This document shows positions 1-63,156 of a DNA stretch of 64,000 nt, piece after piece. The notes beneath the pieces were generated by a model. It saw nothing but the letters and a program-made list of their open reading frames with translations. It was not told the origin of the DNA and did no database searches. Origin of the DNA: Spraguea lophii (taxonomy: Eukaryota > Microsporidia > Spragueidae); contig LDOQ01000289.1 in assembly GCA_001887945.1 (NCBI GenBank), forward strand, positions 31,383-95,382. The letters are read 5' to 3'. Each line of letters begins with the position of its first letter. The stretch's first letter is position 1. A program made the position numbers and the translations under genes.

Positions 1-853
1 CTATTGGTGTTCCTAATACTACATTAAGATATTTCATTAGGTGTTCAACATTTGATATTAGGTGTTGTACTTCGAGTGTTGGGTGGTTGATAGCATCGTG
101 ATATCTAGGATCGTGTTTTATTTCTTCTGTATGTATATGTTTTGTATCATATCCTTCAAGTTCATTTCTTTCATAAAGTTTTGCTGCTGATAGAATAAAT
201 TTTTTCTCATCGGAAACTTTACTGTAACTGGATGATAATGAGAAGAATTTGCCTGATTTTCTATCCTTAAGAAGTGGTGAATCATATAATCTTAAATTAT
301 CGTATATCAAATTGTCTTTATCGTAAATTTCTATTTTGAAATTTTGTTTCGTTGAGATAATTTTTATCCTTAATTTACTAATATTCCTGTATCTTTCTGG
401 ATTAGGTGAATCTTTTATTACAACAATATCATCATAGCTATCCAAATGTGTTATGTCCTGTCCGTCGTTTACGGCTATTAATATTTCCATGGATCTTCCA
501 AGGAATTCAACACCAGCCATAATACCATTAAAATCACCATCAGTACCAAATAACTTATTACCATAATTTACTGGCTTTTCTGTATACCATAAAAATATAC
601 CTGCTTTCTGTGGATATGCTACATTTATATCATTAACAACAAATTCAAAGCTCCAATTTTCATGTTTATTCTCCGTTTTAAAGTTAATTATAGAGTCTTT
701 ACCATCTAAGGATTTCATAATTAAATCTTCTCTGTTTATTACCACATTCTTCAATGCTAAATTTTTAAGATCGTTATGTGTCGAATATCGTATATCATCA
801 ACTAAGTTTTCAATTATACTAGATTTTATCAAAGTTAATAATGTAAATAACAT
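1..853 (-). CDS. L-type lectin-like secretory protein (3' end beyond window)
   Basis: An open minus-strand frame starts at the ATG at 851-853 and stays open to the window edge, about 284 codons without a stop. It begins with a short hydrophobic leader (MLFTLLTLIKSSI). Residues about 65-120 read like the core of an L-type (ERGIC-53/VIP36/Emp47) lectin fold: WSFEFVVND, then GIFLWYTEKP, then GNKLFGTDGDFNGI and GVEF. This resembles the family's GLAxWYT...GxVFG...FxGxxIxxD pattern, although the usual Asp after the Gly-rich turn is Glu here. Family members are ER-Golgi cargo receptors for glycoproteins. The C-terminus, where a transmembrane anchor would be expected, lies outside the window. It is divergent from the next gene, with 116 bp between the starts. 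The fold call is mine from motif reading; sugar binding is unproven. Confidence 0.6.
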   Translation of the reverse strand, partial: MLFTLLTLIKSSIIENLVDDIRYSTHNDLKNLALKNVVINREDLIMKSLDGKDSIINFKTENKHENWSFEFVVNDINVAYPQKAGIFLWYTEKPVNYGNKLFGTDGDFNGIMAGVEFLGRSMEILIAVNDGQDITHLDSYDDIVVIKDSPNPERYRNISKLRIKIISTKQNFKIEIYDKDNLIYDNLRLYDSPLLKDRKSGKFFSLSSSYSKVSDEKKFILSAAKLYERNELEGYDTKHIHTEEIKHDPRYHDAINHPTLEVQHLISNVEHLMKYLNVVLGTPI

Positions 854-969
854 ATGTTTGTTATTATTTGTTACTTTTATAGCACGTATAATGATTTGTT
901 TCACGACTGATAGAATCAAAAACAAAAAGAAAATTGATAAAAAATAAAAAGAAATGTATCAGTTTCAGT

Positions 970-3774
970 ATGTTTATCGTTCTTTATTTTATTCTTGCTA
1001 TATCCTCTATACAGGTTGGAATAAGACCAAGGTGTGATTGTAGAGTATATAGACCTGAATGTGTAAATGTTTGTAGATATTATAATTATAAATTACCGAA
1101 TAGAGAGTATTATAATAAACCAATACAATATGTTCCTACAATACCAAAAGAATATCTAAATAATTCTCCTATACAAATAACAAAAACTGTATATAAAGAT
1201 AAATCCGATGAACAGAAAATTAAAACAGTTTATAGAGAAAGGGAAACAGATAAAAATGATATAGGATTGATAGATACGGAAGATTCTTCACCATATACTA
1301 AAAAAAGAGATATGGTAAATAAAATATACACAAAAAATAGAAAAAAATCAGATAATTTAAACTTTTGTGCATTGTTGTATTATTTAGACCAATATAAAGA
1401 TGATTTAAATATTAGTGAAGACAATTATAATGAAATAAAAACAGGATTTTTTAATGAATATAAACTTAATGAAAAAATATGTGATAAAAATATTGTAGGA
1501 AAAAGAGATGGTGCGATTTTAAAACACGGTGGAACAATTAAAAAAACAAAAATCAATAAAAAAGCAAACTTTTTTAAAAGATTAATTGGTTCTGATGAAG
1601 ATGTTAAAGTTGAAGAGTTAGAAGTAAACAAGGACAAATCAAATTCTAAGAAAGTACGACTTATAGAGGAAGAGCCAGTCATTCCAATAACAAGTGAAAA
1701 TAAAATAGTTACAACCACTAAATACGTAGATAAAATTTCCACTGTAAATAATACTATCATACATACTGTTTATATTCCAAGTAAAGATTATCAAAATCCA
1801 CTCTATGATTACTTTGCAAAGGATCAAAATAACAATAAATACAAAACTATCAATTCTGAATCTAATCAAATAGATAATCAAAGTACAATAAAAAATATTC
1901 TTAGTCAAACTAGACCACCTGTATCAACATTTACTGTAACAAATACAATTACGGTAACAGAAACAAAACCACCTGTAACTTCCAAAATAATACGTAAGAA
2001 ATACAGAAAATCCAACAAAGATTGTGAAAGTGATTGTCAATCAAATAATAATATTAAAAAAAGAAAACATAATGAAAAAAATAGTAATGTAGTTGATAAT
2101 AAATTATTAAATGTAGATTCTACAAATAATGAAAATTCTAATGAATTTTCAGAAAATAAAAGAAAAAAGTCGAAACGAAAGAAAAATAAAAAATTTTTAC
2201 TTGAAGAAAAAATGGACAAAAAAGATGTTATTAAAAGATTATTAAATATTTTGGTTGAAGAAAAAAAAATAAAGAAGGAAGAGAAAAACACCGATGAAAT
2301 AAAAGTAGAAGAGAAACAAAATCAAACTAAAGATAACGATAATGATCTCCTTCTAAAAATATACAATTTACTTTTAAAACAAAAAGAAATACCAAAAACT
2401 ATTTCTGAAGATAAAATAAAAAGTAAAGATAAAAACGATATAGACAAAAACAATAAATATCAAATTAAAACATCTTCTATTCCAATCTCAACAACAAATA
2501 AAATATTTGAAACAATACAAACAGTGCCAGGATCTGTCGTTACAGTGACTGTTACCAAAGATCATAATATAATAAAAACTGTAGTAAAAGATTCAATAAG
2601 CACAATAACACAACCAATTCAAGAAATAATGAATACAATTACATCTAAGATAAAAGGCAAAGTAAAAACAGTGACACAAACAGAGAATAAAATAATAACA
2701 AATGTAATTGATAAAGAAATAATAAATACTGTATATAACACAATAAATACAGCAGAACTAAAAACAGATAAAATTAGTACACAGGTTAAATATCCTCAAG
2801 AAGACACAATAGAAAAAGGTATTTCTACAGAAAATCCTATCGGTAAAAAAGTAATAGTACCACCTAACCAAGAAAATAATAAGAGTATCAAATTATCTTT
2901 TACATCCTCAAATATTTCTTCTACTATAAAACCTATTATAAAAAATAAATATATTACTAAAAAAGTAACAGAAGAACCTAAAACATCTACCATCACAACT
3001 ATTAATATAAAAACAGAATATACAACATCTTTGCGTTCTAAGAATACAACAATAACAAAAAATATAAATAACGATGGAGAAGAAGTTACAGAAGGAATAT
3101 TAGATAAAATTTTTAAACCTTTTATAAGTTTAGCACAAATAAATAACAAAGATTCTACAGAAAATAAAGAAATTGAAAAAACAGAAGATGATAAGAAAAA
3201 TGAAAATAACTCCAACACAGGTACTAACAACAACAATAAAAAATCTAAAAATAAAAATGATAAGGATAAAAAAAATGAAAATAATCCCAACACAGATACT
3301 AACGACAACAATAAAAAATATAAAAATAATAATGATAATATAGAAAAAGAGAAAAATAAGATAATAAAACAAATTATTGATAAAAAAATAAAAGCTAATG
3401 ATAATTTTGATGAAGATTTAGAAAAGAAGAAAAAAGAAATAGTGAATAATATTATTGCTGGTAACGATAGACTAAAAGAATCTAACGATGAAAATGTAAA
3501 AAATATAATAAAAAGGAAAGTAGATGAAGCTATAAAAACACAGGATGACATAGGAAAGAAGAAAATAGAACTTAATCTTGTAATTAAAAAGAAGAAGAAG
3601 GAAGATATGAAAAAAGATGAAAAGAAAGTAAAAGTAAAGGTTGTAAAAGTTTATAAAAATAAAATAAATAATGAGAAGAATAAAACCATTGTGAATAATG
3701 ATAATCAGAATAAAAATAAAATACCACAAAATGATGTAGGAAATAGAAATAATCTTTTAGATTTATTAATTTAA
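970..3774 (+). CDS. Large secreted Thr/Val- and Lys/Asn-rich protein, function unknown
   Basis: The open frame reaches upstream to a TTG at 934, but the first in-frame ATG is at 970, giving 934 residues. That start yields a good signal peptide (MFIVLYFILAISSIQVG), followed at once by a Cys-rich stretch (CDCRVYRPECVNVC). The middle has several Thr/Val-rich strands of a common style (STFTVTNTITVTET, GSVVTVTVTK, KVKTVTQTENK) separated by Lys/Asn/Glu-rich low complexity. Near the C-terminus a 25-residue unit occurs twice in tandem. The protein is strongly basic towards its end. It should enter the secretory pathway and could be a spore-coat or exported protein, but I recognise no family. Confidence 0.8.
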   Translation: MFIVLYFILAISSIQVGIRPRCDCRVYRPECVNVCRYYNYKLPNREYYNKPIQYVPTIPKEYLNNSPIQITKTVYKDKSDEQKIKTVYRERETDKNDIGLIDTEDSSPYTKKRDMVNKIYTKNRKKSDNLNFCALLYYLDQYKDDLNISEDNYNEIKTGFFNEYKLNEKICDKNIVGKRDGAILKHGGTIKKTKINKKANFFKRLIGSDEDVKVEELEVNKDKSNSKKVRLIEEEPVIPITSENKIVTTTKYVDKISTVNNTIIHTVYIPSKDYQNPLYDYFAKDQNNNKYKTINSESNQIDNQSTIKNILSQTRPPVSTFTVTNTITVTETKPPVTSKIIRKKYRKSNKDCESDCQSNNNIKKRKHNEKNSNVVDNKLLNVDSTNNENSNEFSENKRKKSKRKKNKKFLLEEKMDKKDVIKRLLNILVEEKKIKKEEKNTDEIKVEEKQNQTKDNDNDLLLKIYNLLLKQKEIPKTISEDKIKSKDKNDIDKNNKYQIKTSSIPISTTNKIFETIQTVPGSVVTVTVTKDHNIIKTVVKDSISTITQPIQEIMNTITSKIKGKVKTVTQTENKIITNVIDKEIINTVYNTINTAELKTDKISTQVKYPQEDTIEKGISTENPIGKKVIVPPNQENNKSIKLSFTSSNISSTIKPIIKNKYITKKVTEEPKTSTITTINIKTEYTTSLRSKNTTITKNINNDGEEVTEGILDKIFKPFISLAQINNKDSTENKEIEKTEDDKKNENNSNTGTNNNNKKSKNKNDKDKKNENNPNTDTNDNNKKYKNNNDNIEKEKNKIIKQIIDKKIKANDNFDEDLEKKKKEIVNNIIAGNDRLKESNDENVKNIIKRKVDEAIKTQDDIGKKKIELNLVIKKKKKEDMKKDEKKVKVKVVKVYKNKINNEKNKTIVNNDNQNKNKIPQNDVGNRNNLLDLLI
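3190..3339 (+). repeat. 75-bp in-frame tandem duplication (2 copies)
   Basis: Two adjacent 75-bp copies (3190-3264 and 3265-3339) encode a 25-residue Asn/Lys-rich unit containing KKNENNSNTGT or KKNENNPNTDT. The period is a multiple of three, so the frame is kept. Confidence 0.8.
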
Positions 3775-4767: not shown

Positions 4768-5210
4768 GATTAGTAGATAATATTGGTGTTTATAAAAATG
4801 ATAGATCTGATACTGTTTTAGATAATGATCAAAGTTAAATCTTTTATAATCGAAACCAGTTAGTACAAGTTTAGATATGGTTTAACGATTAAATATTATA
4901 TATCATAATAGGTTACAAACGGTCCTGAATCCTCTACAAAAAAAACAATAACACCTTTTACAATGTTATAACAATCGATAATATATTATATCTATTAAAA
5001 TTAAAAGTATTTTTAGTGTGATAATAAATAAATGTGAAAGTATATTTATTAAATAAATAATAAAAATATCTCTCAAAAAATATTTGAATAGAAAATTTTA
5101 AAATCAAAGATAATTAGTGTTAATTATAAATTAAGGAATATACAGTCTTCATTCGTTTACATTTATTAGAAAATTACTATTAAAATATATTAGTATAATA
5201 ACATCATAAT
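4768..5210. other. Intergenic AT-rich spacer with a SINE fragment
   Basis: No coding signal. The stretch at 4851-4926 resembles the 3' part of the dispersed SINE (CGAAACCAGTTAGTACAAGT, then TATCATAATAGGTTACAAAC). It is an old, truncated plus-strand remnant. Confidence 0.55.
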
Positions 5211-6816: not shown

Positions 6817-7658
6817 TAAAAAATAATAGAAGATATTTATCTGTTTTTTAAAAAACAAAATATTTTTATAAGAGGGGATAAGAAATTATCTGGTAATCAA
6901 TTATATATTTAAATATTGTTATAAAATATTTATATTTATGATAGAAATAAATAATAGTATACATATACAAACAAGTATATATTATAAATATCAAATAAGC
7001 TATTTTATAGTTATTATATATAAAGTAAAATGAAAATAAGGAAACTATCATTTAAGAATAACATTTATTTTGTTAATAATAATTTCAAAAAGAAATATAC
7101 ATATTATATACAAATATAATATTTTATATATAAAGTATTTATATATGAGATAATTTAATGTAAGATGAGATTAATGCATATATGTAGCGAAACCAGTTAT
7201 TACAAATCATCCACATTTTAAATAATTAACAATATTATAAATAATAATATATAATATATTAATTATAATTCTTTTTATGTTTATTAGAGATTATATTTGA
7301 TTAGCTAGTTTATTAGAGATTATATTTGATTAGCTTATTAAAGAAAATAAACATAAGCACATAATTGAATGAATATTTTAAAAGAAATAATTATTATTAT
7401 AATATCAATACAGTTGTAATATCCATTAACAATGAATATATTATATAAATACATATTTCATAAACACACCCTCGTATTATATTCACTAATCAAATATAAT
7501 AATAACAAAAAAACCATTTTATAAATTCTATAATGATATTTATTAAATAATATATTTTAATTATATTTATAATATATCATTATTATAATATCTATATACA
7601 ATCTATCATTATCACTGTCATTATTATAAAATAAAATCAGGTAACACAAACACAATAA
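6817..7658. other. Intergenic, AT-rich, with a SINE fragment
   Basis: No gene seen. Positions 7158-7207 match the most conserved SINE body segment (TAAGATGAGATTAATGCATA, then TGTAGCGAAACCAGTTA) on the plus strand. The rest is A/T-rich; two copies of TTTATTAGAGATTATATTTGATTAGC lie close together around 7275-7335. Confidence 0.5.
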
Positions 7659-10017: not shown

Positions 10018-10925
10018 AGATACCTATATTATACCTTTTTGAAAGAAATTAAATTTTTTTTACCCTTGTGATGACAATAAAAAAAATATTAAGAAAAATA
10101 ATAAATTAATAATTTTATTAAAATATAATACATTTTTTTATCTTAATTTCTTAAAAAAAACAACCAACGACAGATAATATTAATAATTATGAATTATACA
10201 CTCTTTTTATATATTATTTAATTCTACACTATGTCTCTTCTATATTATTTGTGTGTATTCCTGAAATTGTATTAATGAAAGATATAGAATGGCTTATAAT
10301 CGAATGAAAATAGTTTTTATGAACATCAGTATAGCTTCACCGATAATTTGTGTAAATAATGGCCAAGTTTTATAATATATTCTTCATAGAACTTATTTAT
10401 TTCATCGGCAGGCTATGATGTTATTTTTTTCTTTTACCCATTCTTTCTACACTTCCCCAAATCCAAGTTCCATCTATTCTGTGACCTCTATTATATTATC
10501 TTTTACCGAATTTGTATTCTTTAATTTCTATTTTGATTTCTTTCCCATTTAATTTATTATTTTTATTGTATTTTAATACAATTTTCCTTATTATTTTTAT
10601 TATTACGTTATATAATAATTTAATACACTTGTTAATTATTAAAATGTTATATATAATTGAAATAACTTTATCGCAATCTAGCTTTGAATTAAAAAAAGTT
10701 TTTTTAATAATAGAAGTTCTAGTTTTTATATATTTTATTAAATTTTAACATTTTTTACAATGCACCTTTCGCTGAAACAGTGCATACACACTATTATAAT
10801 TGTTTTTCTTTCTTTTTCTTCTATGAATATCGTCTTAAAACATTCTAATGTTATTTCTTTTTTGTTTGTCACCACAAGGATAAAATAAAGGTAATTTCTT
10901 GCAAAAGGGTAAATTGTAGGTATCT
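10018..10925 (-). mobile_element. Decayed Merlin/IS1595-type DNA transposon
   Basis: A 908-bp unit is bounded by inverted repeats. Reading inward from 10018 and inward from 10925, 50 of the first 60 bases agree without gaps (both begin AGATACCTA). Between them lies a broken minus-strand transposase frame with clear IS1595/ISXO2-like wording. The flanks show no target duplication, consistent with an old insertion. Merlin elements are known from other microsporidia. Confidence 0.8.
10215..10912 (-). pseudogene. Merlin/IS1595-like transposase remnant
   Basis: One minus-strand frame keeps family text across several in-frame stops: a Cys/His zinc-ribbon-like start with HCKKC, TRTSIIKKTFFNSKLD, then NGKEIKIEIKEYKFGKR, a stop, YNRGHRIDGTWIWGSVER, and near the end HSISFINTISGIHTNNIEET. 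These correspond to the family's IEIDExKFGKRKYNRGH, GxWVFGxVER and NHSxxFVxPxTGxHTNxIE segments. At least six stops interrupt the frame, and the first catalytic acidic position (IEID) reads IEIK. It is inactive. The plus-strand ORF at 10512-10748 is just its antisense. Confidence 0.8.
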
Positions 10926-10944
10926 AAATTCCGATATTAAAATT

Positions 10945-11180
10945 CTATAATTGGGTTTGGCCTATTATGGTCTAAGATTATTGTTTTCTTAAAATACAGA
11001 TAAATTGTACTAACTGGTTGTAGTCTATTATTATATAAAGCTATTGGTTTCTTAAAGCATATATAAGCTGTACTAACTAGTTTTATACGTATGTAATAAT
11101 TGCATCTTACTTTTTTTGTCCAAAACGTTAGAAATTTGCGTATAATGTAACTATCAATATTTTAGTCTTGATGCGATTCT
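10945..11180 (-). mobile_element. SINE remnants, minus orientation
   Basis: TTTGGCCTATTATGGTCTAA, TGTACTAACTGGTT, a second TGTACTAACTAGTTTT about 70 bases later, then CATCTTACTTTTTT and AACGTTAGAAATTTGCGTAT correspond to the antisense SINE body. The doubled TGTACTAACT block suggests two overlapping insertions or an internal duplication. It is heavily decayed and lies beside the dead Merlin element. Confidence 0.6.
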
Positions 11181-13872: not shown

Positions 13873-14030
13873 AACTGTTAATATATGATGTAAAACGAGA
13901 TTAATACCTCTGTAGCGAAACCGCTTAGTACAAATTTAAATATGCTTTAGAAACCAAAGGTCCTAGACTATGATAGGCTGCAACCGGCTAGGAAACTTCT
14001 ATTAATAAAAGTTTTATTAATAAAAAAATA
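13873..14030 (+). mobile_element. SINE, 5'-truncated 3' part
   Basis: Matches the SINE 3' third: ACGAGATTAATACC, GTAGCGAAACCGCTTAGTAC, TGATAGGCTGCAACCGGCTA and the tail AATAAAAGTTTTATTAATAA followed by an A-run. The head is missing, typical of incomplete reverse transcription. Confidence 0.8.
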
Positions 14031-17416: not shown

Positions 17417-18300
17417 TAAGGTAAAGAAAACATATTTCTATTTATACCTTTAACTTTGTATACATAATACAAACAACTATTAAATAATGATATATATATT
17501 ATTTATATATATTTTATTTTTATAATTATTGTAAATTAGATATAAAAGAGAAGATAATTACTTATATTTAAGTTATTACGATTAAAAAAATAAATATTAT
17601 AGAAATGAAATCCTCTTAAATCAAGAATGAAAATAAAAAGATAATAAGATATAAAGAGATTTATTCATTTTAATAATAGAAATAAAATATATACTGATTT
17701 ACATTTAAAATGATAATTTAAAGCTTATCGTGATAAAACAACAAATCATTTATAAATATAAATATAAGTTTATTTTGTATTTTTTATATAATTTATTTTA
17801 ACCGTTATTTTTGTATAAAATATAATATATGTATCTATTTTGTACTTTTTTTGATATAAAGTTATAATAAATATATTTGTGTATTTTTTATATATGTTAC
17901 CGAAAAATATTATCGTACTCATGATATTCAAAATTATTATATTCTATAAGCAGCAAAAATTATAGTACATTTCATATTCTAAATCCCATGAGGTTATCAT
18001 ACATTTAATACAACAATGCATAAATTATAATAAACAAAAAAATATAATAGAAAATAGAATAGAATAAAGCAAGCTAAATAGAAAGATTAAAAACATAATT
18101 TTAACATAATTTAATTATACCTTTTATAACAATATTATTATTATATTAAAAGTAATAATTAAATAAAACCCTTAGTTAATATAGTACAATATCAATAAGA
18201 TTGAAATAACAATAGCATACATAAGTAATGAGCAATAACAAGTATAGAATAATATTATTATATAATAAATAATAAATAGAATGAAATAATAGATATAAAA
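17417..18300. other. Intergenic AT-rich sequence
   Basis: No gene, RNA or clear repeat seen. Confidence 0.4.
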
Positions 18301-18660
18301 AAAGAGAAAGATTGTTAAGTGGATGAGTGTTCGATAATGCAGAATTAACGATACCTTATATAACGACCATTCTTTGATTAAAATAATGTTTAACTGATGT
18401 AATTACAATTCCTGTATTGATTTATGAATCTATATTATTATATAAAGAAAGATATTAGAACTTCATTAAGGATGATAGAATGATGATTACACCACATATA
18501 AAATCCCATAATATAAAATATAAGACAAGATAAGATTAATGCATATCTGTAACGAAATCAGTTATTACAAGTTTAAATGTGCTTTAGGAACCAAATGTCA
18601 TAGATCGCGATAACTATAACTGGTTAGAAAACCTTTATAAATAAAAGTTTCATTTTTAAA
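18301..18660 (+). mobile_element. SINE lacking the tRNA-like head
   Basis: Begins at the body element AGAGAAAGATTGTTAAGTGG and runs through GTTCGATAATGC, TAATGCATATCTGTAACGAA, GTTTAAATGTGCTTTAGGAA to the tail AATAAAAGTTTCATTTTTAA. It is 5'-truncated, in plus orientation, and ends about 110 bp before the 1221-residue gene. Confidence 0.8.
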
Positions 18661-18772: not shown

Positions 18773-21700
18773 ATGAATACCATAGAATATAAATTATTAT
18801 ACAAATATAATAAATATAAATCTATACATGTTCTATATAATAATAATAAAAATATAGATAACAATAAATATATAAACGATACTACCAATAGTAATACTAA
18901 TAATAATATTAATAATATATTAATAGTATCTAATAATAGTATAGATATATTATCATATGATTATAAATATTTATATTCTATTAATCTAGATAATATAATA
19001 GATATTATTACATATAAAGAATATATAATAGTATTAACATATAAGTATCTATACCTATTAAATAATAAAAATAATTATTATAATAGATATGAAAATGATA
19101 TCAATAAACATACTACCACTGATAATACTAATAAACATATTACCATTAATACTAATTCTAATACTGATATTTATAATAATAAAATAATATTAAATAAAGA
19201 TAATTATAATATAGACAGTATAATACATATAATAGATAATAATATTATAATATACAATAATAATACTATAACCGTTATAAAATATAATAATAAGATTATA
19301 GATAGTAATATAAAAGATAATATTATAAGAGATAGCGATAAGATTATAACAGAAATAAATAATAAAATATTAAAGATATTAAATTATAAAGAATATTTAG
19401 TAACCTTAGAATATAATAATAAATATATAAATGATAGTCAAAGTGATAATAATAATGTTATAAGCGACATTAACAACCATACTAACACTTATACTAATAA
19501 TAATAAATATATAATTAATTTCTATAGTATTCTTAAAGATAGAATAATAAATATATATTCTAAAGAATACAATAATATTAAAGATATATTTATTATAGAT
19601 AATATATTATATCTATATTATAATGATATAAAAGATAGTAATAGTATAGATAATGATATAGATAATGATATAAAAGATAATAATAAAGATATATATGATA
19701 ATAATATTAATACCAATAAAACAATAATAAAAGAATATAAGATAATGAAATATAAATATTCTATAGAATTAATATTTAATAATAAAAATATTTATAATTG
19801 TATTTATGATATATTCTTAATAGACAATAAATTATATTTAAAATATAATAATAGATATAATAATGATAGTAATATGAGTGATATAAATGATATAAGTGAT
19901 AATAGTAATATGAATGATAGTAATAATAAAGATAATATAAACAATATTAATGATATATCTAATATTATTATTATATCTAAAATTAATATAAACATAGATT
20001 ATATAAAAATAATAAATAATAATTTTATAATTATAAGTAATAATAATATATTTTCATATACAATAGATTATAAGTATATTAGATCTATTAATAATACTAA
20101 ATATATAAGTGATAATAATAAGGATAGATATATGAGTGATGGCAATAGTAATGATAGATATATAACTAATAATAATACTCGCATAACCTTAGGTAACCCT
20201 TGTAATAATATTATCACTAATAATACCATCACCAATAATAATAATATAATATACAGTAAAGAATATAATATAGATAATAATATATTTATATTTAATATTA
20301 TAAAATTAATAGATATAAATAATATTATAGATATAAGAATAATAGATAATTATATTATTATATATCAATATAATAATAATGATATACATATGAGTGATAA
20401 TAGTAATATGTATAATAATAATGATAATAATAAATATATGAGTGATAGTAATAATGATAACAATACTATAATTGATAATAACAATATAAGAATAATAATA
20501 TATTATAAAAATAAATATCTATATTCATCATATTCATTATATGATAATATTATAGTTTATAAAGATAATATATATTTATTATATTCTAATTATACTATAA
20601 TAGATAACCATATTGTATATAAAGATAATAATGATAACAATAACAATAAAGATAGTAATATATATAGAGTAAGTATAAAAGATAATACAACAAAAATACA
20701 TAATAGAATATATTCTTATAACAATATTAACACTACTAACAATCATATTAACAATATTAGTATTGATAATAATAATTATTTATATAACATAGATGAATAT
20801 ATCTTAATAATAAATAATAATACAATAAATATAATAGATAATAATAATAATAAAATATATTTAATAATAGTAAAAGATAATATTAAAAGAATAACACATA
20901 ATAATAATAGAATATATATTTATTATAATCATTATATTAAAATATATACTTATAATAGATATAATAGATGTGATAAGGATAATACTGTTAAACATATTAA
21001 TAATACTATTAATAATATTTGTGATAATAAAATAAGAATATATTTTAAATGTAATATAAATATAAAAGATTATGAAATATTCATATTCTATAATAATTAT
21101 ATTATTCTTTATAATAACAATAATAAAAGTATAGATAATAAAAGTAATGATGATAATAATACTAAAAGCATAGATAAGAGTAATATTACTACTACTAACA
21201 ATAATAATACTTACATAACCTTTAGTAACCCTAATAAATATAATAATAATAATATTTATTATAGATTAATAGATAATAAATTATATAGAATAGATAATAT
21301 AAAAATAAATAATATAAACATTAATTTAATAGATAGAAAAGTATTATATTATTATATTTATATTAATTATAATAACATTAATGATAATAATATTAAGAGT
21401 AATAATAGTAATTATAATAATACTAAAAGTATAGGCATAGATAATAAGAATGATATAAATGATATGGATAATATAACTAATAATAATATTAATAATAATA
21501 TAAATACAATAATCAATAGGTTTAGTAAAGATAATTATTTAGAAGATTTAATATTCAAAAGAATAAAATATAATAATATTAACAATAAGAGTAATAATAA
21601 TATAGATAATAATACTAACAATCATATAAATAATATAAACCATATAAATAATATAAATATATCATTTATAAAATATATGAATAATTATTATAAAATAAAT

Positions 21701-22438
21701 AATAAAATAAATGATATAAAGTTTATTACTGTAATATACAATAATATAATAATAAGTGATAATAATAGAATATATATTTATAATATAGGTAATAGATATA
21801 ATATAAATAATAGTAATAATGATAATAGTAATATAGTATATGATATAGATAATAATAGATACAGTATAAATAATAATAATAATATTATTACTACCTATCC
21901 TAACCCTAATGATAATAATCATATAAATAATAATATAATATATTATAATAATTTATTATTAAAAAAAGTAATAAATATTAAGAGTAATATTATAAGAATA
22001 ATAAAAGATAATATTTATATAACAGATAATTATAAATTATATATTTATAAATATATTATTATAAGAGATACTACTAATAATAATCATAATAATAATATAA
22101 ATAAATATATTACATCTGTAGAAAGAATAGATACTATAGAAATAAATGATATTATAAACTTTTATATTTATAATAAATATATTATCATAAACAATAGAAT
22201 AGGATATATTTATTATATTCAATATAATAATATTATAAATAATAATAATATAAGAGATATAAAAGATACTGAAGATAGTAATAATACTAACAACTATATA
22301 AACCATAGTAATACTAATATTAATACATATAATTATATAAAAGATTTATATACGATAATATTAAAATATATAATAATAGAAAATAGATTATTTATTATTA
22401 CTATAGATTATAATGTATATGAGATTATTTTATATTAA
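18773..22438 (+). CDS. Very large Asn/Ile/Asp/Tyr-rich protein, possible beta-propeller
   Basis: An uninterrupted frame of 1221 codons in DNA where TAA and TAG are the commonest words must be under selection. The start is preceded by CCC (CCCATG). Composition is extreme: Asn, Ile, Asp, Tyr and Lys dominate, in runs such as NNNINNI. Between the Asn-rich inserts there are regularly spaced short hydrophobic strands (NILIVSNNSIDILSY, YIIVLTYKYLYLLN, FIIISNNNIFSYT, IIINNRIGYIYYIQY). These resemble propeller blades of the WD40 or CPSF-A (Cft1/Rse1/DDB1) kind, down to a C-terminal strand at the very end. The family assignment is a guess from this periodicity. The codon and amino-acid style matches the HAD gene at 7.7 kb and differs from most neighbours. 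Confidence 0.75.
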   Translation: MNTIEYKLLYKYNKYKSIHVLYNNNKNIDNNKYINDTTNSNTNNNINNILIVSNNSIDILSYDYKYLYSINLDNIIDIITYKEYIIVLTYKYLYLLNNKNNYYNRYENDINKHTTTDNTNKHITINTNSNTDIYNNKIILNKDNYNIDSIIHIIDNNIIIYNNNTITVIKYNNKIIDSNIKDNIIRDSDKIITEINNKILKILNYKEYLVTLEYNNKYINDSQSDNNNVISDINNHTNTYTNNNKYIINFYSILKDRIINIYSKEYNNIKDIFIIDNILYLYYNDIKDSNSIDNDIDNDIKDNNKDIYDNNINTNKTIIKEYKIMKYKYSIELIFNNKNIYNCIYDIFLIDNKLYLKYNNRYNNDSNMSDINDISDNSNMNDSNNKDNINNINDISNIIIISKININIDYIKIINNNFIIISNNNIFSYTIDYKYIRSINNTKYISDNNKDRYMSDGNSNDRYITNNNTRITLGNPCNNIITNNTITNNNNIIYSKEYNIDNNIFIFNIIKLIDINNIIDIRIIDNYIIIYQYNNNDIHMSDNSNMYNNNDNNKYMSDSNNDNNTIIDNNNIRIIIYYKNKYLYSSYSLYDNIIVYKDNIYLLYSNYTIIDNHIVYKDNNDNNNNKDSNIYRVSIKDNTTKIHNRIYSYNNINTTNNHINNISIDNNNYLYNIDEYILIINNNTINIIDNNNNKIYLIIVKDNIKRITHNNNRIYIYYNHYIKIYTYNRYNRCDKDNTVKHINNTINNICDNKIRIYFKCNINIKDYEIFIFYNNYIILYNNNNKSIDNKSNDDNNTKSIDKSNITTTNNNNTYITFSNPNKYNNNNIYYRLIDNKLYRIDNIKINNININLIDRKVLYYYIYINYNNINDNNIKSNNSNYNNTKSIGIDNKNDINDMDNITNNNINNNINTIINRFSKDNYLEDLIFKRIKYNNINNKSNNNIDNNTNNHINNINHINNINISFIKYMNNYYKINNKINDIKFITVIYNNIIISDNNRIYIYNIGNRYNINNSNNDNSNIVYDIDNNRYSINNNNNIITTYPNPNDNNHINNNIIYYNNLLLKKVINIKSNIIRIIKDNIYITDNYKLYIYKYIIIRDTTNNNHNNNINKYITSVERIDTIEINDIINFYIYNKYIIINNRIGYIYYIQYNNIINNNNIRDIKDTEDSNNTNNYINHSNTNINTYNYIKDLYTIILKYIIIENRLFIITIDYNVYEIILY

Positions 22439-28046: not shown

Positions 28047-28793
28047 ATGAACAGTGAAGAAACAACAAAAACATCTAGTCAAGAACAAAGAAGACCTAAA
28101 AGAGCACCAAGAGAAGAAGCTGAATGGTTTCCAAAAACTAGTTTGGGTAAATTAGTTAAAGCTGGTAGAATTACACTCGATGAAATCTTTGGTCACTCAC
28201 TTTGCATCAGAGAACCAGAAATAATAGATTATTTCCTTAAAGCCACATTGAAAGAAGAAGTTCTGGTTATTAAATCAGTTCAGAAGCAAACTAAAGCCGG
28301 TCAAAAAACAAGAATGAAAGTAGTATTAGCACTCGGAGATCATAATAACTATATTGGAATAGGAAGTGGTGTTGCAAGAGATGTAGTCTCTGCAATAAAC
28401 GCAGCTAAAGTAGTAGCAAAATGTTCTATGAGACCAATAAAAAAAGGATTTTGGGGTAATGAGATTGGAGAAGCACACACAGTACCAGTTAAGGCTCTTG
28501 GAAAATGTGGAAGTGTTAAAGTACAAGTAACACCAGCACCTAAAGGAACTGGATTAGTAGCAGGTGGAGTCAGTAAAACTATTTTCAAATTAGCAGGAAT
28601 AAAAGATATATTTACTTCTTCAAAAGGACAAACATGCACAACTGAGAACTTTGCAAGAGCGTCTCTTTATGCTATAACCAATTCTACAAATTTTAATATG
28701 CCTAATGTTATTGAGGAGAAAGTAGTAGAATTAAATCCTATATTAAAAAACGCAGAGTTTTTAATTGAACAAGAACAGAGAGACTTGAGATAA
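28047..28793 (+). CDS. RPS2: 40S ribosomal protein uS5 (Rps2)
   Basis: Cytosolic small-subunit protein at the mRNA entry channel, needed for decoding accuracy. The frame opens at 28002, but the ATG at 28047 gives MNSEETTKTSSQEQRRPKRA and a natural 248-residue protein. Landmarks are EWFPKTSLGKLVKAGRITLD, EIIDYFLKATLKEEVLVIKS, the S5 N-domain VQKQTKAGQKTRMKVVLALG with GIGSGVARDVVSAINAAK, and the S5 C-domain VPVKALGKCGSVKVQVTPAP with GTGLVAGGVSKTIFKLAGI. No parts are missing. Composition is less AT-biased than in the neighbours, as expected for a highly expressed conserved gene. Confidence 0.97.
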   Translation: MNSEETTKTSSQEQRRPKRAPREEAEWFPKTSLGKLVKAGRITLDEIFGHSLCIREPEIIDYFLKATLKEEVLVIKSVQKQTKAGQKTRMKVVLALGDHNNYIGIGSGVARDVVSAINAAKVVAKCSMRPIKKGFWGNEIGEAHTVPVKALGKCGSVKVQVTPAPKGTGLVAGGVSKTIFKLAGIKDIFTSSKGQTCTTENFARASLYAITNSTNFNMPNVIEEKVVELNPILKNAEFLIEQEQRDLR

Positions 28794-29100: not shown

Positions 29101-29113
29101 CTTAGTGTGTCAA

Positions 29114-29605
29114 TTTTTTTTACGAATGAAACTTTTATTTATCAAAGCTTCCTGGCCGGTTGCGGCCTACCATGGTCTGTGATCTTCGGTTCTTAAAGCA
29201 CATCTAAGTTTATACCAACCGGTTTCGCTACAGATATGCATTAATCTCATCTTACCTTATGCTCCGAGTGTTAGGATTTTGCGTCTGGTGCACGTCTCCG
29301 CCCCCTCCCAGGTTTTAAGGAATTCCAAGTCTCTTCGTTACATAATATTGGCCGAGTCACTAATCAATACAGGGATTGCAACTACATCAGCTAAACACTA
29401 CTTTAATCTAGTAGCGGGGCCGTCATACAAAGCACAGCTATGCTGTGCTATCGAAACCTCACCCACTCAACAACCTTTTTTCTTCTCTTCTGCATTTATT
29501 ATTATTTTATTTTTTTTTGTTTTGAAAGCTTTTTCTGGATGAGGGATTCGAACCCGCCAGGCTTGGGGTTTGGTTACCACCCCACGACCACTGGGCCAGG
29601 CGGGA
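29114..29605 (-). mobile_element. Full-length tRNA-headed SINE with 13-bp target-site duplication
   Basis: This is the best-preserved copy of the dispersed retroposon. On the minus strand it begins TCCCGCCTGGCCCAGTGGTC, containing a perfect pol III A box (TGGCCCAGTGG), and carries a perfect B box (GGTTCGAATCC) about 50 bases further on. An A-rich linker, a roughly 350-bp body and the tail AATAAAAGTTTCATTCGT plus eight A follow. CTTAGTGTGTCAA flanks it exactly on both sides (29101-29113 and 29606-29618). The head, A-tail and duplication together show retroposition. It has no coding capacity of its own; the plus-strand ORF at 29279-29542 is antisense read-through. Its GC content is far above that of the surroundings, so it is a young copy. 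Confidence 0.93.
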
Positions 29606-29670
29606 CTTAGTGTGTCAAGAATGAAAAAATATCTGTGACAGATTAAAATAATATTTAAAGAAAAACATTA

Positions 29671-30531: not shown

Positions 30532-31015
30532 TCACGCTTGGTCCAGTGGTTGTGGGGTGGTAATCAAATCTCAAGCCTAACAAGTTAGAATCCCTCATCC
30601 AGAAGAAATTTCAAAATAAAAAATAATAATAAAAAGTAGAAGAAAAGAAAAAGGTTGTTGAGTGGGTGTGGATTCGATAGTACAGCATAGCTGTACCTTG
30701 TATGACGGTTCTACTACCATATTAAAGTAGTGTTTAGTGGTATAATTACAATCATCGTATTGATTTGTATCTCAGCAAATACTATACCAGAAAAAGGTTA
30801 AGAGTCTCTGAAAAAATTAGGAGAGGCGATAACATGCTTCTTACGCAAATTTATAACGTTCTGGAGTATAAGGTAAGATGAGATTAATGCATATCTGTAG
30901 CGAAACCGGTTGGTATAAACTTAGATGTGCTTTAAGAACCGAAGATCACATGCCATGATAAGCTGCAACTGGCCATGAGACTTATAATAAATAAAAGTTT
31001 TATTAATAAAAAAAA
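30532..31015 (+). mobile_element. Full-length SINE
   Basis: Head TCACGCTTGGTCCAGTGG (A box TGGTCCAGTGG) and a degenerate B box (AGTTAGAATCC). The body runs through ATTCGATAGTACAGCATAGC, TTAAAGTAGTGTTTAGTGGT, TAATGCATATCTGTAGCGAA and TGATAAGCTGCAACTGGCCA to the tail AATAAAAGTTTTATTAATAA plus A-run. It is inverted relative to the copy 1 kb upstream, so the two could pair. Only a weak 6-bp flank match (TTTTAA) could be a target duplication. Confidence 0.9.
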
Positions 31016-32785: not shown

Positions 32786-33015
32786 TTAAATTTGTTGCGA
32801 CATATTATAATATGGGATTGTTGATTCCTTAAAACAAGAATAATTTGTATTAATTGGTTTCGTGACATATACACATTAATCACATTTTACTTTATATTCC
32901 AAAATATTAGGATTTCGCATATAATACAATCGTCATTCTTTCTTTGCTTATATGAGATTTTAAATCCATTCTTGGTATATTATTACTCGTTTTATTAATC
33001 AATACATGTACGTAA
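32786..33015 (-). mobile_element. SINE remnant, minus orientation
   Basis: GTTGCGACATATTATAATAT, TTTGTATTAATTGGTTTCGT, ATATACACATTAATCACATT, ATTAGGATTTCGCATATAAT and TTAATCAATACATG follow the antisense SINE body in order. The head is missing and divergence is high, so it is an old copy. Confidence 0.65.
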
Positions 33016-42804: not shown

Positions 42805-42811
42805 TTAAAAA

Positions 42812-43262
42812 CTTTTATTTATTATAAGTCTCCTAGCCGGTTGCAGCCTACCGTGGTCTGAGACCTTTAGTTCCTAAAGTATATCTAAACTTGTATTAAC
42901 CAGTTTTGCCACATATATGCATTAACCTCATCTTATCTTATGCTCCAGACGTTAGGATTTTGCGTATGATGCACGTCACCACCTCTCCTAATTTTTTAGA
43001 GACTCTTAACCTCTTTCTGGTATAATATTGGTTGAGTTACAAATCAATACGATGATTGTAATTACACCACTAAACACTACTTTAATCTAGCAATGGGGTC
43101 GTTATACAAGGCACAGTTAATGTTGCATTATTGAATCCTCACCCATTCAAGAACCTTTTCTCTTCTCTTCAACATTTTTTTGAAAATTCTTCTTGTTGAG
43201 GGATTCGAACCCGCCAGGTTTGGTATTTGGTTACCACTCCACGACTACTGGACCAAACGGAT
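42812..43262 (-). mobile_element. Full-length SINE, minus orientation
   Basis: On the minus strand it begins ATCCGTTTGGTCCAGTAGTC (A box TGGTCCAGTAG) with the perfect B box GGTTCGAATCC, and retains the whole body and tail (AATAAAAG). The 7-bp word TTAAAAA abuts both ends (42805-42811 and 43263-43269), a plausible short target duplication but easily chance in this base composition. Confidence 0.9.
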
Positions 43263-47114: not shown

Positions 47115-47568
47115 TTTTTTTAAATGAAACTTTTATTTATAAAAGTCTTCCTGGCTGGCTTATAACCTTTGATTCTTAAAGCACATTTAAACTTGTACCA
47201 ACTGGTTTTGCTACAGATATGTATTATTTTCATTTTACATTATACCCAGAACGTTAATGTTTTATATATGATGTACGTCGTCTCCATTTCTTAATTTTTT
47301 AGAGATTCCCAATCTTTTTCTTAGCATAGTATTAGCCGAACCACAAATCAATACAAGAATTGCAATTACGCTGGCCAAACACCATTTTAATCTAATAATG
47401 GGTTTTTTATATAAGATACAGCCAATGTTATGCTATCGAACCCACATCTGTGCAATAACTTTTTTTTTATTCTATTTTCTATTTTTTTGAAAATTCTTCT
47501 GTGTGAGGGATTCGAACCCACGATGTTTGAGATTTAGTTACCACCCATAGCCATTCAGCCAAATTGGC
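47115..47568 (-). mobile_element. Near full-length SINE just upstream of the GGT gene
   Basis: On the minus strand: head GCCAATTTGGCTGAATGGCT (A box TGGCTGAATGG), B box GGGTTCGAATCCCTCAC, body with one deletion around the GGCTGCAACC block, tail AATAAAAGTTTCATTT plus an A-run. The head ends only 41 bp before the gamma-glutamyltransferase ATG, with opposite transcription, so its pol III promoter points away from that gene. Confidence 0.88.
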
Positions 47569-54832: not shown

Positions 54833-55262
54833 AATAAAATATTCCAGTTGGCTACAGTACACTTGGGACCGAGATTGTTAACTCCATAAGGTTGAATAAT
54901 TTATATTAATTGGTTTCTATATATATTAATATTATCTTATATTATGTTCGGATTGTTCTGGTTTTGCTTATGATGAACATGTTGCCTTTTTTCACGTGAT
55001 ATTCCAGACCTTTTTTAGTATAATACTAATTGAACCATTACTCGATACGGATATTATAAGTAGATCAATTAAGCATCAGTTTAATCTAGTAATGTATCCA
55101 TTATATCGAGTATACTCAAATCACACTATTGAGCCTTCACTTATTCAACCATCCTTTTCATCTTTTCCCGTCTCTATTTTTATTTGAAAATTTTATGTGT
55201 AAGATGTTCGAATTTGTCAAACATAAGATTTGATTAATACCTATTAAATTAAGCGATTTAAG
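54833..55262 (-). mobile_element. Old near full-length SINE
   Basis: Antisense blocks in the right order: CCAGTTGGCTACAGTACACT, TTTATATTAATTGGTTTC, TTGCTTATGATGAACATG, TAATACTAATTGAACCATTA, TTTAATCTAGTAATG, CCTTCACTTATTCAACC and a ruined B box (AGATGTTCGAATTTGTC). Highly diverged, so an ancient insertion. The small plus-strand ORF at 54996-55187 is inside it and not a gene. Confidence 0.78.
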
Positions 55263-57404: not shown

Positions 57405-57859
57405 TATTTGCTGGCCAAGGGGTTGTAGAGTAATAATTAAATTCCAAACCAAACGGGTTCGAACCTCTCACCTTGAAGAATTTTCAAAAAAATCAAAAGT
57501 ATAAGAAGAAGGTAACTGGGTGATACGGGTTCGATAACGTAGCATTAGTTATGCCTGTGCACAACCTAACTACTGGGCTAAAGTAGTGTTTAGCCAATGT
57601 ATTTATAATGTATATATTACTTAATGTTCTATTAATATTACAATTAGAAGAAGATCATAATATTATCAAAATGATAGAATGATGATTATATCATACGCAA
57701 AACTTCACCACACTGGAACACAATGTAAGATGATATTATACATATATGTAACAAAACCAAATAATACGAATTCAAATGCATTTCAAGGAACTGAATATCA
57801 TAGATCACGATGGTTGTATCCTCTAAAAAGTTTTTATAGATAAAAATTTTATTAAAAAA
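57405..57859 (+). mobile_element. SINE, full length, moderately old
   Basis: Head with A box TGGCCAAGGGG and B box GGTTCGAACC; the body has GGGTTCGATAACGTAGCATT, CTAAAGTAGTGTTTAGCC, AATGATAGAATGATGATTAT and GATCACGATGGTTGTATCCT; the tail is ATAAAAATTTTATTAAAAAA. It forms the first part of a 1.3-kb unit repeated at 62704. Confidence 0.85.
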
Positions 57860-62703: not shown

Positions 62704-63156
62704 ATCTTGCTTGGTCTAATGACCATTGGATGGTAACCAAATTCCAAGTCCACCAGATTTTAATCCTTCATAAAGAAAAAAAACAGATAGAAGAGAAAGG
62801 GAAATTATTGAGTAGACGAGGATTCGATTATGTAACTTAATTATACTTTGTATTTCATTATACCATTGGATTAACTCGTGTTCGATTGATGTTGTTGCAA
62901 TTTATATATTAATTTGTGTTTCTACTAATATTATGACAAGAAAGAGATTATGAATCTCATTAATAATGATATAATGATGGTTACACCATATGCAAAATTT
63001 TAATTATCTGAAACATAAGATAGGATGAATTAATGCATATCTGTCGCAAAACCAACCAATACAAGTTTAAATGTATTTTAGGAACCAAAGGACATAAACC
63101 ATAATAGGCCTCAACCTGTTAGGAAATTTCTATAAATAAAAATTTTACTAAAAAAT
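62704..63156 (+). mobile_element. SINE, full length, with decayed promoter boxes
   Basis: Head TTGCTTGGTCTAATGACC (degenerate A box), ruined B box (GATTTTAATCCTTCA), body with ATTCGATTATGTAACTTAAT, TAATGCATATCTGTCGCAAA, GTTTAAATGTATTTTAGGAA, tail ATAAAAATTTTACTAAAAAA. First part of the second 1.3-kb unit. Confidence 0.85.

Follow-up and report, generated by a model that had tools for sequence, protein, structure and literature searches.

A tRNA-headed SINE family and its probable LINE partner in the microsporidian Spraguea lophii

We identified a tRNA-headed SINE family in Spraguea lophii, whose copies appear to be mobilised by a LINE through a related 3' region (a reading to which we give a probability of about 0.9). 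One full-length copy lies at 29114..29606, on the minus strand, of the 64,000-nucleotide stretch of DNA that was analysed (hereafter the window). According to this reading, RNA would be made from an internal promoter formed by an A and a B box, and its 3' region would be akin to the 3' UTR of one of the genome's own LINEs. The endonuclease and reverse transcriptase of this LINE would recognise the 3' region and the A tail, nick the target at TT/A-like sites and use the nicked end to reverse-transcribe the RNA into the site (target-primed reverse transcription). The outcome would be an A-rich tail and a target duplication of mostly 11–17 nt, both of which are present in the genome. The family is long-lived: one group of copies is very similar, other copies have come to resemble the AT-rich background in composition, and two copies appear to have undergone gene conversion. 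A preliminary description of this DNA was largely right about the window copy but overlooked the probable LINE partner, 12 further pieces in the window and the tract of putative gene conversion.

The window copy is ~490 nt long and consists of a tRNA-like head, a body, a LINE-related 3' region and an A8 tail. All features that had been claimed for it were found in their places when the minus strand was read. These are a perfect A box (TGGCCCAGTGG, 29588..29598) and a perfect B box (GGTTCGAATCC, 29544..29554), which presumably form an internal pol III promoter, the eight-A tail at the 3' end (29114-29121), and identical 13-bp flanks. The two copies of the flanking target-site duplication (CTTAGTGTGTCAA, 29101..29113 and 29606..29618) match exactly over 13 nt, and the first base of the second overlaps the first base of the SINE. 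An AATAAA polyadenylation-like signal is located near the A tail (29134..29139, minus strand). The GC content of the element is 43.6%, compared to 21.7% for the whole window, and the longest listed reading frame within it has 56 aa and is antisense. The body matched no Rfam family at gathering score, and nothing convincing at E up to 10, which speaks against its being part of an rRNA or tRNA locus, a possibility raised earlier. In particular, a 5S rRNA origin, prompted by the word GGTTGCGGCC on the plus strand, was rejected: at E up to 10 no part of the element matched 5S rRNA in Rfam, although nine 5S genes scored above the cut-off elsewhere in the genome. SINE pieces occurred within the flanks of four of these nine genes (loci L012, L013, L015 and L017; a raw count).

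We searched the genome (5,273,041 bases in 73 contigs) for further copies. At least 40 places matched the window SINE at 92% or more (best 40 of 426 candidates scored). With up to 3 mismatches allowed, a 33-nt internal word was present at 114 places (68 + 46) and a 26-nt internal word at 206 places (95 + 111), with 0 places for the reversed-pattern controls. These two words place the family at no fewer than 114 to 206 sites, far from the low copy number that the preliminary description had named as evidence against a SINE. A 21-nt tail word, which LINE tails can fit too, was found at 165 places (75 + 90; control 0).

A profile of the copies detected 13 copies or fragments in the window, amounting to 3,976 bases (6.2%), and 0 in the reversed window. 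Extrapolation from 13 per 64 kb to the whole genome gives ~1,000 pieces, a rough figure because it derives from one window that was picked for containing a copy. Apart from the copy described above, these pieces include a more diverged full-length copy, inverted relative to it (30532..31013, plus strand, nhmmer E 1e-102), and more diverged near-full-length copies at 42809..43260 (minus strand, E 4e-99), 47116..47562 (minus strand, E 2e-64), 62706..63149 (plus strand, E 4e-44) and 57411..57854 (plus strand, E 4e-31). The others are a diverged copy without the head (18300..18660, plus strand, E 3e-39, model 117-487), a 3' fragment (13886..14027, plus strand, E 1e-25), diverged fragments at 54901..55239 (minus strand, E 2e-12) and 32794..32924 (minus strand, E 7e-11), a 50-nt fragment (7156..7205, plus strand, E 3e-10), a weak diverged fragment (11048..11145, minus strand, E 7e-6) and the weakest of the 13, also diverged (4850..4943, plus strand, E 3e-4). 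None of the 13 pieces overlapped the 22 larger ORFs used, which span 53% of the window, and random insertion points avoided all 22 ORFs in ~0.0001 of 20,000 draws.

The nearest larger gene on one side of the SINE is the uS5 gene at 28047-28793. Its protein is identical to chain SC0 of PDB 7QCA, the Spraguea lophii ribosome (PMC10522483), in each of the 248 residues compared. The genome had earlier been described as microsporidian-like, and the host is indeed a microsporidian, almost certainly Spraguea lophii or a very close relative. A histone deacetylase encoded in the window has microsporidian relatives at ~51–56% identity, among animal ones. The window also contains a very asparagine-rich open frame of 1,221 aa (18773-22438) in a stretch of 11–18% GC. 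Elsewhere in the genome, a head-only SINE on contig C11 (L031:1969-2300) is followed by a different repeat, which is 81% identical over 270 nt to window positions 10671-10938. Its left flank, TTACTTAATAAACT, matches the right flank of a full SINE nearby, whose left flank is in turn matched by TTGGAGCT on its own right, as if the two had recombined or been copied together.

Target duplications were examined in 62 copies that started no more than 6 positions from the head, reached position 470 and had both flanks present; they came from part of the genome, and truncated and contig-edge copies were dropped before the count. Exact duplications of at least 11 nt flanked 47 of the 62 copies, versus 3 of 1,223 flank-swapped controls, and those of at least 13 nt flanked 41 of 62, versus 0 of 1,223. 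For the remaining 15 copies, no exact flank duplication of 11 nt was found. An earlier rule that tolerated one mismatch gave 53 of 62 but had a 30% false rate in the controls, and was replaced by exact matching. Duplication lengths varied, mostly within 11–17 nt, and 13–15 nt were commonest. The duplication at the window copy is thus one of many, a point on which the preliminary description had made its interpretation depend. Insertion sites were TT/A-like, with T at 63% and 61% of positions -2 and -1 and A at 61% of position +1 against a background of ~40% each (51 sites, taken from the looser one-mismatch duplications), and A-rich 3' ends were seen in the 59 copies inspected. The duplications and TT/A sites are the marks that target-primed reverse transcription by an endonuclease-type LINE would leave. 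The proposal of a tRNA-headed SINE spread by retroposition is therefore supported by its many copies, target duplications and A-rich ends. It is very improbable that the element is instead what remains of a DNA transposon (MITE) or a segment that recombination has multiplied. Such an origin could account for the close inverted pairs, one of which has an 83-nt identical tract in common, but it agrees poorly with target duplications that vary from 11 to 17 nt, with the A-rich ends and with a 3' region common to a LINE; for a MITE, moreover, the duplications should be short and of fixed length, and head and A tail should be inverted repeats of each other, which they are not.

The head of the retroposon retains the promoter boxes but no recognisable cloverleaf, as ARAGORN reported zero tRNAs over the window and Rfam gave no tRNA match on the element even at E up to 10. 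Its fit to a tRNA fold is poor, and the structure of minimum energy differs from a cloverleaf. We compared it with 46 of the host's 58 tRNA matches (45 above the Rfam cut-off and one below). Ranked by score, Ser-GCT, Leu-TAG and Ser-AGA came first, followed by Trp-CCA, which was itself first by z-score. The parent tRNA, which the preliminary description had expected to name, thus has no secure name, the score favouring serine or leucine and the z-score tryptophan. Genome-wide, 89 places (34 + 55; reversed-pattern control 0) carry the exact head pattern, in which the two boxes lie ~33 nt apart, and the full-length copies inspected begin within a few bases of one head position, as an internal promoter predicts. 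Both observations argue for pol III and against transcription by pol II, driven by neighbouring genes or by a cryptic promoter, which we consider unlikely. Features that would suit pol II are an AATAAA within the last 45 nt, near the A tail, in all 62 copies, a head that does not score as a tRNA, and a TTTT near position 79, which could stop pol III early and is present in 55 of the 62 copies and absent from the window copy.

The preliminary description called the window copy young. Sixty full-length copies differed from their consensus by 0.6–8.3% (median 1.6%), and the window copy, at 5.9%, ranked 57th of the 60; these copies had been chosen for their similarity to the window copy and to an internal word of it, a choice that favours close copies. 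The window copy is therefore young only in a relative sense: it is more diverged than most of the full-length copies ranked and does not belong to the youngest group. Of 108 distinct profile hits in the window and the other loci examined, 54 were at least 98% identical to the consensus, 15 were at 95–98%, 6 at 85–95% and 33 below 85%, two of the last group being LINE 3' UTR pieces (in loci L101 and L005) rather than SINEs. This series is no census, as the choice of loci put many diverged hits near young copies, but it suggests at least two waves of SINE spread. Copies become poorer in G and C as they diverge, positions with these two bases being kept at 56–58%, compared to 84–88% for A and T, and within the window the GC content was 0.44 in the 29114-29606 copy versus 0.25–0.38 in the 12 others. 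High GC had earlier been taken as a sign of recent movement; higher GC does go with lower divergence.

Part of this apparent age may have been acquired from a neighbour. The window copy and the inverted copy 0.9 kb away are 100% identical over an 83-nt tract (29178..29260, minus strand, and 30868-30950) and 76% identical elsewhere. Aligned to the consensus, the window copy shows 38 differences, of which 13 fall in the tract, and these 13 are common to both inverted copies. Among the loci examined, the next best matches to the tract were 88% over 51 nt and then 87%. The tract is probably the product of gene conversion, most simply with the old copy as donor and the younger one as recipient. Descent of both from one subfamily ancestor is less probable because 83 of 83 positions are identical. 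A gene-conversion-like tract of this kind would partly explain the apparent age of the window copy.

The isolated 50-nt fragment and a 26/26 identity in the 30532 copy had prompted the idea of a conserved, perhaps functional core at consensus positions 347-396. This was rejected: z was only 2.2–2.3 over the 33 hits below 85% when base-specific decay was allowed for, and the 26/26 identity falls inside the putative gene-conversion tract. Two bins of the decay table, 281-300 and 401-420, had a z of -5.4, which may reflect subfamily differences.

A search of the genome for RVT_1 gave nine places, of which seven were examined: LINE loci L022 and L027, Gypsy-like loci L019-L021, and L023 and L026, which are two pieces of one long frame. 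RVT_1 was above cut-off in the L022 piece, while Exo_endo_phos_2, Exo_endo_phos and RVT_1 matched below cut-off in the L027 and L098 pieces. The latter two lie at the start of contig C72, which has a 479-codon frame with weak, below-cut-off matches to Exo_endo_phos_2 and the start of RVT_1; the first part of the endonuclease is in another frame, and the copy runs off the contig. Because its endonuclease is split over two frames, this copy is either broken or misread. No intact LINE was seen among the LINE pieces examined, and an upstream frame, interpreted as ORF1, matched no Pfam family. Protein relatives of the LINE carry PF03372, PF14529 or PF00078 among the 20 matches listed, the named ones being from Acanthocheilonema viteae, Smittium culicis and Strigamia maritima. 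L101 and L005 contain the LINE's 3' end, in which a CCHC-like motif, a stop and then a 3' UTR that terminates in A were recognised by eye; zf-RVT matched the C-terminus at E 0.11 only. When the LINE 3' end was used as a query (best 40 of 108 candidates scored), at least 16 of 41 rows extended past the stretch shared with the SINE, at least 11 of them over ~180 nt or more.

Locus L101 (positions 1-3068, contig C21) contains pieces of apparently at least two LINEs, head to tail, with a 68-nt LINE fragment (98.5%) between the poly(A) of one and the ORF1-like region of another, an arrangement that reads as template switching or nested insertion. LTR elements were rejected as partners, since their insertion should produce neither A tails nor duplications of this kind. 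L019 had protease and RNase H matches, L020 protease matches and L021 RVT_1 only, and the three look Gypsy-like by eye. L023 and L026 (contig C2) contain an open frame of 1,239 codons with split RVT_1 matches and long asparagine-rich inserts, which, as a guess, is perhaps telomerase.

The SINE and the LINE are homologous near their 3' ends. Consensus positions ~370-464 of the SINE aligned to the LINE 3' UTR with a local score of 85 in each of two LINE copies, and the best of 1,000 dinucleotide shuffles scored 43 for each. In the window copy, this segment of ~95 nt corresponds to 29142..29236 on the minus strand (coordinates transferred from the consensus). A core, AACCnAAGGTCnCAGACC...GGCCGCAACCGGC, occurs in both the LINE and the young SINE, and older SINEs still show it. 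The shared part ends ~28 nt before the 3' end of the SINE and ~125 nt before that of the LINE, so the ends are not collinear and the SINE tail would be a shortened version of the LINE's. This layout is that of a SINE that would have borrowed the 3' signal of a LINE and may depend on it, and because ~95 nt of LINE 3' UTR are homologous to the SINE 3' part, LINE-driven target-primed reverse transcription is likely.

A different LINE, or relaxed recognition of poly(A), might instead mobilise the SINE, the shared 3' region being a relic of its origin; we regard this as rather unlikely. It would be in keeping with the unequal distances of the shared region from the two A tails, with the A-rich ends of the SINE copies inspected and with a second, different LINE-like C-terminus seen by eye in L101. 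It also agrees with the behaviour of older copies, in which the shared region shows no excess conservation and decays about as expected from base composition (z 1.1 and 2.1 at 421-460, and -5.4 at 401-420). However, GGTC...GACC and GCCG...CGGC, which are able to form hairpins, were seen by eye in both LINE copies and the young SINE, and the target-site and tail features fit an endonuclease-type LINE. We prefer mobilisation by the LINE with the related 3' UTR.

SINEs derived from tRNAs (SINE2 class) have A and B boxes, an unrelated body, a LINE-like 3' part, an A tail and short variable duplications. The Spraguea element resembles this class in each of these features and differs from it in a head that ARAGORN and Rfam do not recognise, a body without an Rfam family at gathering score and a length of ~490 nt. 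A fungal parallel is AfuSINE2-1a of Aspergillus fumigatus, a tRNA-related SINE that is similar at its 3' end to the 3' UTR of the LINE I-1_AF (PMC5063351), so that both systems combine a SINE and a LINE of one genome with similar 3' sequences. The two organisms belong to different phyla and, by description, AfuSINE2-1a ends in an ACT repeat and the Spraguea SINE in poly(A).

The preliminary description knew of no well-described tRNA-derived SINE in Microsporidia. None was found in the freely available published papers that were searched, but a SINE line is in print in a repeat table for Nosema bombycis, with 28,669 bp, 0.18% of the genome and no subtype; in the accessible part of that report it comes without a head, tail, target duplication or partner (PMC3614468; compared by description). 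Published microsporidian LINEs include families in Anncaliia and Edhazardia and L1-type and Dong-R4 elements in Microsporidia sp. MB, and non-LTR transcripts are listed for S. lophii; the available parts of these reports contain no LINE–SINE link (PMC4202319, PMC13174016, PMC3749934). The word SINE was not found in the main text of several papers, the S. lophii genome paper among them: PMC4202319 and PMC13174016 were searched for the whole word in the singular, PMC3749934 for the start of the word, and PMC7313128 for singular and plural. In the S. lophii genome work, contigs of at least 500 bp were retained and those above 40% GC discarded. The SINE consensus (492 nt) has 45.9% GC and the LINE pieces 41–43.5%; a collapsed SINE contig would thus probably have been filtered out. 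The SINE family with its probable LINE partner is ordinary in kind and, as far as searched, new for Microsporidia. SINE terms are reportedly mentioned in mosquito work on Microsporidia MB (PMC7198529 and PMC11657153).

At least 11 contigs apparently begin at one SINE position (consensus 367-368, inside the palindrome ATGCAT), C3, C19, C35, C46 and C48 in one direction and C15, C25, C54, C56, C58 and C60 in the other; letters were available for C3, C19, C35 and C48, and the other seven were placed from coordinates. The shared starts are probably an assembly artefact at repeats, though a fixed nucleotide is odd. For three contig ends, C11:1, C63:1 and C63:12583, the distance to the point where the LINE 3' query begins is 323 bases in each case, and contigs therefore seem to break at one LINE position as well.

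A broader reading, to which we give even chances, is that the SINE and LINE form a still-active pair, the first in Microsporidia, in which the LINE recognises the common core. The SINE would make up ~6% of the genome, would have spread in two or more waves and would vary in its insertions between strains, and it would have been hidden by assembly filters.

Microsporidia are models of genome reduction. A genome of only 5.3 Mb in which SINEs cover ~6% of a 64-kb window (a rough figure, as it comes from a single window) indicates that compaction is compatible with bursts of retroposons. The SINE–LINE pair offers a direct test of tail recognition, and its divergence series displays decay from GC to AT together with probable gene conversion. 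The family may also explain gaps in short-read assemblies, and its insertions are possible markers for strains of this fish parasite.
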